From an uncultured Oligoflexia bacterium (GTDB lineage Bacteria; Bdellovibrionota; Bacteriovoracia; Bacteriovoracales; Bacteriovoracaceae): a stretch of 64,000 bases of DNA. The DNA lies in assembly GCA_913058265.1 (NCBI GenBank), contig CAJXPQ010000001.1, positions 310,001-374,000 of the forward strand. The letters are read 5' to 3'. Both the position numbers and the translations under genes were made by a program. The notes beneath the pieces are model-generated. The model worked only from the letters and a program-made list of their open reading frames with translations. It was not told the origin of the DNA and did no database searches. Below, in pieces: positions 21,011-27,085 of the stretch (positions are counted from its first letter, which is position 1; each line of letters starts with the position of its first letter).

Positions 21011-21647
21011 AATTCTCCTTAAATAATATTAATATATGAAGCTAATCGGCAAAAGAGAGAAATAGTTAATTATTTATTATTTCAAAGGGTTAATGTGATA
21101 TATTTGTCGGAATTAAATTGATATGTGCCACTAATTAGAGTCTAAAAAGGCTTAAATTTAAGTAATAATTGGATCAATACTTATCCAATCTATTATTTAT
21201 AAAGCATCAGTCATTATCAAACAGGATTACTCCCTACAATAAGTCGGCTGAAAAAGATGTAGATGTTCAAAGCTTTAAAATAGGATATGATCAAGTTATG
21301 AAAAAAAGAAGCAAGACTACTGCTGGCATAATGTCTCTGTGCTTGAGCAGTATCATTCTTTATATCCTTCTAACGCCAAAGCAGAAAATTCTAGGTCATT
21401 ATATCTCATTCTTTCTTTCAAAGATGATCCAACTGAAACACTATTTGTTGATCAGTTCTCCGCCCCACATATTTCGATATCTATAACCCCAAGCTCCTTT
21501 ACACGGCTTGAGAAACTTAACTCTATTGCGAAAGTTATGAGACAGACAGTAGGAAGCCCGGAGCATTTACCTGAATTTGAAAATTATACAAAACTTCGAA
21601 AGTGGGAAAAAGGGAGACTCACTTATAAGAATCAAACCTATAACATT

Positions 21648-21704
21648 AAGGTTAAGGTTAAGGTTAAGGTTAAGGTTAAGGTTAAGGTTAAGGTTAAGGT
21701 TAAG
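21648..21704 (+). repeat. (AAGGTT)9 hexanucleotide array
   Basis: Nine perfect head-to-tail copies of AAGGTT (21648-21701) plus AAG. Read in frame they encode a (Lys-Val)9 run inside the CotH-like sequence, just before its HGKS segment. The unit is a multiple of three, so copy-number change alters length but not frame. Confidence 0.95.
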
Positions 21705-22117
21705 ATACATGGAAAGTCACCTGCATTCGATCACTCAAACAAAGGTCGATTTTCACTAACAGTTAAGATCCTTAATGACATGAAGCTACTTGGCGCAAAA
21801 AGATTTAATCTAATTATATTAAAGAAGGACATAAGGCATTCCGCAGTAAATCGCTTCTATCCTTTTGCTGAAAAGCTTGGACTGTTTAAAGATAAAAAAA
21901 CTTTAGTCAAAGTTAGTGTGAATACAAGAAAGAGCTATCTTGCTTACTTTGAATATCGAATGAATAAGTCATATTTTCAACAAGAGGGATATCCTTCGTT
22001 GTTAGAATTAAACTCTAATTCTATAAAAACTCTGATTATAAATAGTATTAAACTTAAAACTTATGATCTACAAGCAATTAAATTATATCTCGACAAACAT
22101 ACAAAATTAATACATAA

Positions 22118-22125
22118 TTTTTTTT
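22118..22125 (+). repeat. T8 homopolymer at a frame junction
   Basis: Eight T residues at the point where the CotH-like frame must change from frame 0 to frame 2. Frame 2 has a stop at 22115-22117 and frame 0 stops at 22140-22142, so the shift must lie between them, and the run is the obvious site. Confidence 0.7.
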
Positions 22126-23309
22126 CAATTCAAATCATATAAACCAAGTAGAGAATAATAAAACAAAAAACTTACTTCTAGGAGTAAATGATGCAATCGT
22201 AGCTGGTGATACTCAAAAAGTTTTGAGTTTTTTTGATATCCCATATCTTGTTAGTTTTGAAGCCTTAAGTTTTTTATTCCACTTTGATTCTCATGGTTTT
22301 ATGCCTCACAATCAGACGATATTTTTAAATACAAGTAACTACTTATTTTATCCCGCTTTGCACAGAGACTATGTCCCAAGAATAATCAATTCTAGTGAGG
22401 ATCTTGAAGTCGGATATGATGCTAAGTATGAAAGTTTGAATCTATTAAATAATATTTTTGTAAGGAGTGATCAAATTCGGCATCAGAAGTATGAAGTGGC
22501 CTATAAGTTAATAAACAATAAAATGTTTTTAGAAAATAATCGTAAGAGTAATTACAATAAAATAAATAATTTTTTAACTTTGTACTTTCCAGATTTTTTA
22601 AATATAAGGTTAGATGATATTGTTAATAATGCAAAACGCTTAATCGTTTTTGAAGGAGTTCTTGCAAGCTATACTCATCTGGAAAGTAATCTTCAAAAAA
22701 TTCAGACCTATCTAGATCGTTTTAATCCAAAGGTAACTTATATACATCAAAATGGTAATACGATTGTTTCTATCGAGCCTAATTCACAGGCTCCTCTTCA
22801 GATTGAGTTTGAGGATTTTATTAGTAGGATGATAATTCTTGATTCAATCGAGATAAGTGAACAAGAAATCATATCTAATTCATGGGATGCCATTTCCAAG
22901 CACAAATTTTCGGATACATATAATATTGATATAAATAAACAAAAAAGAACATATATGATCTTAATCAAGGGAAAGATCAACCTTAAAGACCTCACTTTAA
23001 AGATCAAAAATAATCTATCTAAGGAGGTAAAAAAAGTTATTCCTACCTTTGACCCAGATCTGGGTTCTATCACTAAAAAAAGAACCCCCTGGCGGTAATA
23101 TCGATTATGTATTTATCGAACTTACTTAGCTTTTACGATTTCATATCATAGTACAAATTCAAAGATATCAGAAGATCATTTACTATGCTTGCAGATAATG
23201 TGATAAAATTAGCATTACTCACAGTCTTAACATTATCCCTAACTTACTGATAACAATGAAAATACTTCACCAGTTTAAGTTCTCACTCAGACTAACCGAC
23301 TAGTTAAGT

Positions 23310-26180
23310 ATGAGATTTTTCTTAATGCTCATTCTTTTGACCTCCGCCCTTAGCTCCTTCGCTAAGGATGGATCTGTTGCAGTCTTAGCTGCAGAACTAA
23401 AAGGTATGTCGTTTACAAGAGTTCAAATGCTCAGAAGCTCATATATCTCCTTTATAAAGGGAATGGAGCAGTCACGTTATACTCATCAAACAACTCCAAC
23501 CGTGGAGTTTTCTAATTTTGATATTATTAGAGAGTACTTTGAAGCAATTGAATCTTATTATAGCGCTTACGCCGCAAGTGGTGATATTTGTTATTTTGGG
23601 GGATGGCCATCAAAGATGAGTGATCAGTTTTGTGAAGCCCCATGGAAGCATAGAGGCGATGGGCAAGTTCAAAGCTTTGGACCTATTTATGATCAAAGTA
23701 TGGCATGTGGTTCACCAAGTAAAATTCGTTGTAATCCGGTTCTTTTTGGTGACGCTAAGACTTGTATTAATATCACTGCCCCTTATAAAGACCTTACCAC
23801 TAAATGTGAAGAACAGACTAAAGATAAAGTTTCAGACTTAGTCAATCAAATTAGAAATAATCCTGACAAGAGAAATAATATGGCCGCTTTAGGTCAAAGT
23901 ATTGATCAATTTTGTGATCAATATAAGATGGAGCGAAATAAAGACTATGATGCCTGTGATGCTTTAAGAAATAGAATTGCAGCTCTTCTAGATACAAATT
24001 CTACAGGACAAGTCGACTCTAAAACAGGACTTCCAGTACCATATGAGCCGCCAGCTCAAATGATACAAGCACAAGAAATATTAAATTCATGTCGAACACA
24101 TCTTGATGATCGTAATGGTCGTGGGATTGTCCAAACTTTAAGTGCGGGAATAGTTAGTTGTGTTGGTGAAAATAATAGAGTTCAGAATAATGCTGAAAAT
24201 TTTAGTTTAGATGATATAGAGAAGGTGGCTGAAGCCTTTACTCCTAATGCAATAGCAAAAGAAATGATGTTAACTGATTATGAGCAAAAGCTTAGATCAA
24301 TTATGGCGATGGAATTATCATTAATGAGCTCTTTTGATGCTTCAAGATATGATGTAAATAATAAAGAAAAATTTCTAAGTCAAGTAACCGCAAAGTTTCC
24401 AAATACTGAAACTGATCCAGAATACCTAGCAGTGTTTAATAAAGTATTTGCTCAGACTCAAGAACTTAAAAATAAAGGATTAATTAAACCTGTTGAATCC
24501 AGTGATATATTAAGCAACTTTGAAACACTCTCAAGTGGAATTCATAAAGAGTGTAAACGAATTTATGAAGAGTTTACTAAAGAAGGCTCACCTAACGCAA
24601 ATAATAGACGAAATAATTTCTTTGAGGGAATTAGGTCGTATAGTGACGAAGAAAATCAAGATATCGCAAGGCTAATAAATGATTTTAGTGGTAAGCTAAA
24701 TTCTCTTGTTGAAGGTTCTCAGGTCGGTTTTCTACTGGGGACTAATCACTTTCGAGATAATATCTTGGATCCAACTATCGACTACGCTTCTGAATGTTTA
24801 AAAGATGGAAACTTCAATGTCATGAGTTCAAATATTTCGGACACAGAAGTTAAAACAGCTTTGGGTGAGGCCAGTGATATAATAGACGAATCATTTAATG
24901 ATCTTGCGGAGCTTGAAAGTGATTTCAAACAGGTAATTGATGAAGATGATATTAAAGATGCTGGTGATGATATCGTAGATCATTACCTTAAGAATAATAA
25001 GCATATTGTCACTGAGGTATTACTGAAATCAGATGCAGCAAAAATGGAAGACCGTACAAAGTATCTTTGTCAGTCTACGCTTGATATAGACTTTTGGGAT
25101 AATACAAAGACATACGTCTCATGGGTGGGTGCCGGACTTTCAGCTGTTGGAGCAGTAGTAAGTGGTGTCTCTTGTGTTGTTCCTGCATTCTCAGCGGTGG
25201 CCTGTCCAACGGCAGTAAAACTTGCGACTACCGCATCAACAATTGTGGCAGGAACTGCAATTGCAGGTGGCGTAGGGACAGCAATACTGACAGGTACCGG
25301 TGTATTTGATTTAAATGAAGGATATAATTTGGAGCACTCAGCAATGCTCTCACAAATACAAGATGAAAAAGAAGCATCTGAATATTTACAACTTTCAAGC
25401 CAAGTAGACTCTCAAATCACATCAGGTTATATGGATCTTGCTGGCGGGGTCGTTGGTGGAACATTCACTGTTGGAGCGAGAAGCTATGGAGCATATAAAG
25501 CCGGAAAAGGTGTATCAGAGTCTGGAAATTTAGTATTAAGGCAAGCAAATCCAGATGGTGATATGTTTTACGGAGATATCCCTGGAACTGGAGTTTGGGA
25601 TGATATAGGTAATGGTTATTCAAGACAGAGAAAAGCGAGTGAACTTGATAATGTAACAATAAATCCAAATGGACCAACAGCAATTGAGTATAGACCAACA
25701 GGTGTGGCAACGAGAAAACCTAATGCGGTTAGAGATGCAGAAGAGTTTGATGAATTATTCATCAAAACACCAACAGGTATAACTTTAAGAAACCCTAATA
25801 TGCCATTAGAAGAGGCCATGCTTAGGACTGGAAGATTAAAAGATCTTGGTAGTAAAGCAGATGATTTTACTGATGATATTGGTCAGATGGTTATTAAAGC
25901 AAACGCATCACTTACTGATGTACAAAAAGCAAAGCAAATTGATGAACTTTATAGTATTGAGCTCGCAAAAGGACTTAATCAGGGAGATGTATATAAGGCA
26001 AGGAACTCTATTCTTGAAGCCCACACTAGATTTCCATGTACAGTGCATAGATGTACTCAAGATCAAATAAAAGCAAAACTACTCTATATGAAAATGAATG
26101 GTGTTCCTAATAATATTGCCAAAGATAGTATTAGACGTGGGCTTACTGGTTATACAGATGAAGCTCTTGATACATTATAG
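23310..26180 (+). CDS. Large secreted protein, N-terminal 956 aa of a split gene
   Basis: It has a signal peptide (MRFFLMLILLTSALSSFA), a Cys-containing region (residues ~90-290; GDICYFGGWP, SMACGSPSKIRCNP), a long acidic helical region (~300-600), a Gly/Ala hydrophobic hairpin (~608-670; VGAGLSAVGAVVSGVSCVV and IVAGTAIAGGVGTAIL) and a helical tail with paired Cys (FPCTVHRCTQ). I do not recognise the family. The frame stops at TAG 26178-26180, but protein-like sequence continues at once in another frame to 27085, so this is probably the first three-quarters of a ~1,258-residue protein. No strong ribosome binding site is seen before ATG 23310. Confidence 0.65.
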   Translation: MRFFLMLILLTSALSSFAKDGSVAVLAAELKGMSFTRVQMLRSSYISFIKGMEQSRYTHQTTPTVEFSNFDIIREYFEAIESYYSAYAASGDICYFGGWPSKMSDQFCEAPWKHRGDGQVQSFGPIYDQSMACGSPSKIRCNPVLFGDAKTCINITAPYKDLTTKCEEQTKDKVSDLVNQIRNNPDKRNNMAALGQSIDQFCDQYKMERNKDYDACDALRNRIAALLDTNSTGQVDSKTGLPVPYEPPAQMIQAQEILNSCRTHLDDRNGRGIVQTLSAGIVSCVGENNRVQNNAENFSLDDIEKVAEAFTPNAIAKEMMLTDYEQKLRSIMAMELSLMSSFDASRYDVNNKEKFLSQVTAKFPNTETDPEYLAVFNKVFAQTQELKNKGLIKPVESSDILSNFETLSSGIHKECKRIYEEFTKEGSPNANNRRNNFFEGIRSYSDEENQDIARLINDFSGKLNSLVEGSQVGFLLGTNHFRDNILDPTIDYASECLKDGNFNVMSSNISDTEVKTALGEASDIIDESFNDLAELESDFKQVIDEDDIKDAGDDIVDHYLKNNKHIVTEVLLKSDAAKMEDRTKYLCQSTLDIDFWDNTKTYVSWVGAGLSAVGAVVSGVSCVVPAFSAVACPTAVKLATTASTIVAGTAIAGGVGTAILTGTGVFDLNEGYNLEHSAMLSQIQDEKEASEYLQLSSQVDSQITSGYMDLAGGVVGGTFTVGARSYGAYKAGKGVSESGNLVLRQANPDGDMFYGDIPGTGVWDDIGNGYSRQRKASELDNVTINPNGPTAIEYRPTGVATRKPNAVRDAEEFDELFIKTPTGITLRNPNMPLEEAMLRTGRLKDLGSKADDFTDDIGQMVIKANASLTDVQKAKQIDELYSIELAKGLNQGDVYKARNSILEAHTRFPCTVHRCTQDQIKAKLLYMKMNGVPNNIAKDSIRRGLTGYTDEALDTL

Positions 26181-27085
26181 GGAATACAATTCCCGATTTT
26201 TTTGAAACTCCACCAAGTGGTTTTAACTATAGTGCATCTAAGACAGTTGAAGGTCTGGATGGTCATGTCAATTCGTCTTGGAGCCGCGCTTTAACAAATG
26301 GTGCGATAAGTGAAACTGATGTGAACGTTTTTAGATTTGACCGAATAGCTCCTAATAGTGATAAAACCACGAGTGAGCTGGTTGGTCGCTACCTAGGCTC
26401 TGATGGAAAGTACCAATACTTATCAATCAATGGTGTCACCAGAAGAATTGATCCATCTAATCCAGATATAACTCTTAGAGGTGTCGCAGTTCAAAGAACG
26501 GCCTACAAATCAGATTCATCTCCAGGTTCCCCTCATAGCTACGTGCAAGTTGCAGATAATGTTTATGAGACTGATCCTACCATTGCCATGAATAACCTTG
26601 TGGGGAAGAAAGTAGTTGTAACGAGAAATATGGATGGCCATGACTACGATACAACAGGGATTATTGTTTTAAAGGATGGGAAACCCCATCTTCAATACAA
26701 CAAAGTCGGTGATAGACAAGATATTTCATCTCTTGTTAATGTCGATGACAATACTGTCACTCAAATAAGTAGAATTCATACAAGAACAGATATCATCCAA
26801 AGAACTGGTAGTAGTAATATGATTAGTTCAAGAAGTGTTGATGAAGCCCTTGATTCTATGGCCGAAGTAAAGATTACCTATCAGGCAAGAGCATATGCTA
26901 GTGCGAAACCTGATGAGACAACTCTAAGCGGACGCTATGTTGGCTGGTCTGGCAGTGGTGATGATAAATTTATTGTTATTAGAAGTGCAAATGGACAAGA
27001 TCAATATATTCCATTCTCTCAGGTTGATTCACTACAAGGAATTGATGCAAATATAATTGAGTATAATCAAGGTATAATCCCATAG
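26180..27085 (+). pseudogene. C-terminal part of the split secreted protein
   Basis: About 301 residues in frame 2, open from 26171 with no credible start until a GTG at 26321 that lacks a ribosome binding site. It starts GNTIPDFFETPPSGFNYSAS, which continues naturally from the ...DEALDTL end of the preceding frame. Restoring one T (TTATAGGG to TTATTAGGG near 26175) would fuse the two. It contains two clear copies and one weaker copy of a short beta module (SELVGRYLGSDGKYQYLSI, TTLSGRYVGWSGSGDDKFIV and VGKKVVVTRNMDGHDYDTTG), possibly SH3-like. If the shift is real, the C-terminal part is not made unless there is frameshifting. Confidence 0.6.

Follow-up and report, generated by a model that had tools for sequence, protein, structure and literature searches.

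The window, the 64,000-nt stretch of DNA analyzed here, contains a gene that appears to be broken at a run of eight thymines (T8). Our preferred explanation, which we hold as probable, is that this single-copy gene, coding for a divergent CotH-like protein of the envelope of a Bacteriovoracaceae-type bacterium, was inactivated recently. Replication slippage within the T8 run would have altered the reading frame, so that translation arriving from upstream would end at 22142 and give a product without the C-terminal half. The gene, if dead, is young, because the 592 codons outside the junctions contain no in-frame stop. Under a simple model, neutral change since inactivation amounts to at most about 3% (95%).

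Reading frames and the T8 junction

The whole gene spans positions 21298 to 23098 on the forward strand, judged from its open reading frames (ORFs) and from an intact homologue; the ATG at 21298 is the most plausible start, with a TTG at 21169 as an alternative. The first piece is an open frame (position mod 3 = 0) of 283 codons at 21291 to 22142 on the forward strand, closed by a TAA stop at 22140 to 22142. The second piece, on the same strand at 22118 to 23098, is an open frame (mod 3 = 2) of 326 codons in which the first start codon is a TTG at 22223. Both pieces match the homologue. The T8 run itself lies at 22118 to 22125 (forward strand) and reads AAT TTT TTT TCA in the first frame; sequence, ORFs, and the homologue alignment all place it at the frame change. 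These two frames, together with a third at 21169 to 21486 (mod 3 = 1) and a run of seven adenines (A7) at 21301 to 21307, reproduce the frames and run positions given in a first-pass annotation of this DNA. The confinement of the T8 junction to 22115 to 22142, also claimed there, holds when re-derived from ORF limits, because frame 0 closes at 22142 and the next frame opens past a stop at 22115 to 22117.

The homologue is a protein of 820 amino acids encoded in one frame in the Bacteriovoracaceae MAG SI053_bin57 (G057; L074:5149-7611), whose host belongs to another genus of the same family as the window's genome. Genome searches gave E values against it of 2.4e-9 for the first piece and 2.0e-9 for the second, and pairwise BLAST gave 1e-15 and 1e-13, respectively. 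The pieces are colinear with the homologue, with 28 to 30% identity in the aligned blocks. Because both pieces match this one uninterrupted protein in order, the frame change at T8 is, as far as sequence comparison can tell, a true disruption of one former coding region. Homopolymers of at least 8 A/T are present in only 0.33% of 25-nt segments across 364 kb of the genome, so that finding such a run at the junction exceeds chance expectation. Codon scores per 60 codons are 9.7 and 13.5 for the two pieces versus 18.5 (standard deviation, 6.7) for intact genes, and both pieces are coding-like. The G+C content of the gene is 28 to 33%, versus 36% for the window. Promoter and terminator signals are not above chance (9 versus 12.1 and 0 versus 1.1, respectively). 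The SI053_bin57 protein has a single frame and no hexamer array, whereas the window gene is broken and carries one (see below); the homologue also ends in a C-terminal right-handed beta-helix (PF13229; E value of 2.3e-15) that is absent from the window gene.

A second frame change is likely near the 5' end. Neither frame 1 nor frame 0 has a stop across 21291 to 21486, and the change is placed between 21291 and about 21420, with 21486 as the mechanical limit. Two models disagree on its position, and we report both: by a generic codon model the switch falls within 21298 to 21342 (95% range; best, 21328), an interval that includes the A7 run, whereas a membrane-aware codon model is undecided up to about 21420 and finds frame 0 clearly better after about 21421. 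The A7 run, on the forward strand immediately 3' of the ATG at 21298, is a candidate break only, named from the sequence, the ORFs, and the codon model. Runs of at least 7 are found in 14.8% of 196-nt segments, and A7 is one of many candidates for the 5' switch. The proposal in the first-pass annotation that two shifts fall at homopolymers thus stands for T8, where the homologue match bears it out, and not for A7, since the 5' junction may fall elsewhere.

By ORFs and by codon and membrane models, the 5' segment at 21298 to 21420 (forward strand) reads in frame 1 as MKKRSKTT followed by a hydrophobic stretch resembling a membrane anchor. The 17-residue mean hydrophobicity is 2.3 in frame 1 and 2.7 at a similar place in the homologue, versus only 0.6 in frame 0. 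A membrane-specific codon model sets the frame-1 segment between the two classes, at the 3rd percentile of 99 true segments and in the top 5% of 121 spurious ones; under the generic codon model, its percentile among 916 true windows is 0.9. Upstream of the ATG, the coding signal of the frame-1 stretch at 21169 to 21297 is matched by 58% of 1,973 overlapping intergenic stop-free stretches. Local alignment of the frame-1 stretch to the N terminus of the homologue beats the other frames without reaching significance (16.5% of 1,000 shuffles score as high). The earlier statement that the gene lacks a start codon preceded by a ribosome binding site is partly right: the ATG at 21298 does have an AGGA upstream, although its spacing of 12 nt is long.

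Relatives, CotH homology, and genomic setting

The gene is present in 2 of the 368 genomes of the phylum and occurs once in the window's own genome. At an E value of 0.001, the second piece matched none of the three genus mates. A profile scan of genome contigs returned the SI053_bin57 record as the sole relative, and a single-protein scan of genome contigs revealed no further one. Similarly, no relative was found in viral contigs by profile search or in phages and plasmids searched with the second piece. Weak matches of the first piece in three genomes (E values of 0.0015 to 0.01), among them the genus mate G001 at 0.01, were taken as chance on their E values and ORFs, as were those of the second piece in five genomes (2e-4 to 0.009); the ORF inspection omitted L007. 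A synteny comparison with G001 was uninformative, yielding only a distant relative of the gene at 23310.

Neither the two pieces nor the homologue matched CotH in Pfam (checked to E 10 / E 1), NCBIfam, or PDB. The gathering cutoff of the CotH kinase family PF08757 was not reached, and a search of the window's genome matched another locus only. Alignment by hhalign of the homologue and window sequences together against 22 CotH proteins of the order gave a P of 96.1 and an E value of 3.2e-9 over 244 columns, compared with E values of 0.66 for a reversed control and 0.03 for the best of 20 column shuffles. Used as single inputs, the homologue gave an E value of 7.9e-7 and the window sequence gave 8.8e-4 (P of 23). 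The CotH profile was built from 22 of 23 ORFs, with L047 dropped for having no exact ORF; the 23 came from 33 CotH places after removal of seven weak loci and of three places that had no locus. On these sequence grounds, the gene is CotH-like by descent through remote homology, resembling PF08757 over about 240 columns but falling below Pfam detection. It belongs to a rare, divergent CotH-like branch without a Pfam name.

Kinase activity of the encoded protein is doubtful. In a rough alignment, the window gene keeps 3 of 8 CotH-conserved positions (columns kept in at least 70% of the 22 CotH proteins) and the homologue keeps 2, compared with 7 in the genome's own CotH. The predicted structure of the homologue's CotH-like part has a mean pLDDT of 40. 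The earlier label of a CotH-like kinase is therefore retained in its first half, as remote profile homology below the detection of Pfam CotH, and is questionable in its second, with three of the eight positions kept.

The setting of the homologue suggests a role for the intact protein. A DUF4956 gene lies directly 3' of the homologue and glycan genes lie beside it, and the contig ends 145 bases past the DUF4956 gene. Across the order, CotH and DUF4956 are no more than 5 kb apart at 11 places (33 CotH and 27 DUF4956 places; 125 genomes each), one of them in the window's own genome. CotH, polyphosphate polymerase, and DUF4956 are described as adjoining Pel genes in Gram-positive Pel clusters (PMC7112168). 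In Streptococcus intermedius, Pel level and aggregation are reported to have changed when a CotH-like gene was deleted (PMC12345266). Compared with the CotH-VTC-DUF4956 module, DUF4956 adjoins the homologue, whereas the window gene is an orphan, with neither DUF4956 nor VTC among the neighboring window genes scanned around it. Like the homologue with its adjacent DUF4956 gene, the intact protein probably worked in a CotH module linked to surface glycan or polyphosphate. In the window the gene is an AT-rich orphan, perhaps one that was acquired and is no longer needed. Elsewhere, the window's genome holds an intact VTC-DUF4956-CotH module (L070:8925-11672), with genes beside it that, judged by eye, are likely exopolysaccharide genes.

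The TTAAGG array

A repeat search revealed a feature absent from the first-pass annotation: a perfect array of 9.8 copies of the hexamer TTAAGG (100% matches) at 21646 to 21704 on the forward strand. The array encodes (Val-Lys)n and stands immediately ahead of the HG that is conserved in the CotH-like domain. A three-unit TTAAGG pattern has no other site in the genome searched, with seven overlapping hits that all fall in the array. Among perfect arrays with units of 2 to 12 bases, in 3 or more copies that span 18 bases or more, the 364-kb sample held just one other, of 3 copies, and five shuffles gave none. Relative to the homologue, the array amounts to about 16 extra Val-Lys residues; this figure comes from protein alignment, used in place of a DNA alignment that is unreliable in the region. 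In a structure model of low confidence, the (Val-Lys)n tract lies within what is probably one beta-strand. A change in copy number cannot shift the frame, because the unit is two codons. We propose that the array expanded by unit-wise, frame-neutral slippage inside this probable strand, and that it probably either leaves the fold unaffected or harms it.

Alternative explanations and other frame pairs

A preference for decay over a switch had been voiced in the first-pass annotation, and the present evidence leans the same way, given the break relative to an intact homologue, the orphan setting, the low G+C content, and the lack of further long microsatellites in the 364 kb sampled. The window gene resembles the frameshift pseudogenes of prokaryotes in that its frame changes once with respect to an intact homologue, and it is a young case, judged by the absence of further stops. 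A survey of frame transitions lists 4010 pseudogene clusters versus 146 recoding clusters (PMC3711429). The stop-free frames and coding-like codon usage are just as compatible with a switch still in use, with an error in the sequence, and with recoding. The T run itself is the only positive evidence for phase variation, local sequence error, or recoding.

Phase variation, in which T8 and perhaps A7 would serve as a slippage switch of an envelope protein and the sequenced cells would be in the off phase, is unlikely. The break sits at a homopolymer (the 0.33% chance given above), both pieces are without other stops, and the probable product is a surface protein anchored at its N terminus, judged from the homologue and its glycan setting. 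Homopolymeric tracts in genes have indeed been proposed as general switches (PMC2831843). Like phase-variable genes with such tracts, the window gene probably encodes a surface protein and changes frame at an A/T run, but runs of 8 are common in its genome, and other long repeats are lacking in the sample. Runs of at least 8 number 67 in the 364 kb, including 28 that lie within long open ORFs, making T8 unexceptional for this genome, and other long microsatellites are absent from the same 364 kb. Further, T8 lies in the middle of the gene, whereas long tracts are reported nearer the 5' end (PMC2831843), and switching would need both frame changes to flip if the 5' change is real.

A more elaborate switch would be a two-tier contingency gene in a Bacteriovorax-like predator, with T8 turning expression on and off and the TTAAGG array tuning the beta-strand by Val-Lys steps to give a variable surface-glycan factor; this we regard as highly improbable. 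A single search of a literature collection pairing Bacteriovorax with phase variation returned no match. If the gene does switch, a Bacteriovoracaceae-type bacterium would have in it a candidate for a phase-variable surface gene; if it is decayed, its main interest lies in representing a rare, divergent CotH-like branch and in carrying a frame-neutral microsatellite within its domain.

Recent inactivation also has to be weighed against a local error of sequencing or assembly within the T run, which would make an intact gene seem broken and which we judge to be quite unlikely. Homopolymers are classic error sites, the genome is a draft of 25 contigs, and the absence of in-frame stops is compatible with an intact gene. 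However, an audit of 364 kb, with run thresholds of at least 6 for A/T and at least 5 for G/C, flagged 14 of 132 same-strand pairs, among which the T8 pair was alone in having a run at the junction, indicating that homopolymer errors are not widespread in the assembly. The 5' frame change would moreover need a second error.

Recoding, by which ribosomal -1 frameshifting or transcriptional slippage at T8 would yield some full-length protein, is very unlikely. A slippery heptamer, T TTT TTT, does lie in the right frame at 22118 to 22124, and the second piece is in the -1 frame. The sequence downstream, however, contains no stimulating structure (z score of +0.54; 145 of 200 shuffles fold as well), and the shift is not conserved, the one homologue reading in a single frame. 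For transcriptional slippage, a critical length of nine is reported for many bacterial genomes and eight A residues are called nonslippery (PMC1088944); in the 364-kb sample, run counts drop from 56 at length 8 to 7 at length 9. Least credible is a pair of separate intact genes that overlap at 22118 to 22142 and are translated independently: each piece keeps coding-like codon usage, but 35 codons of coding signal (score of 13) precede the first start of the second piece, the TTG at 22223, at which a Shine-Dalgarno sequence was looked for and not found, and the pieces correspond to two parts of one homologous protein.

The 14 pairs flagged in the audit are not a count of broken genes, because some are plainly separate, for example, a response regulator and a histidine kinase. 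In same-strand pairs of this genome at L059:3698-6164, L063:4443-6349, L067:4681-5941, and L068:17407-17945, the coding signal of the second frame begins well before a usual start, and these pairs may represent nonstandard starts or broken genes. In the region 23304 to 27082, 3' of the broken gene, the next gene encodes 956 amino acids and ends at 26180, and a second frame continues at 26171 to 27082. This second frame has a strong coding signal for 50 codons ahead of any usual start codon and may reflect a second frame change, here not at a homopolymer, or a nonstandard start.
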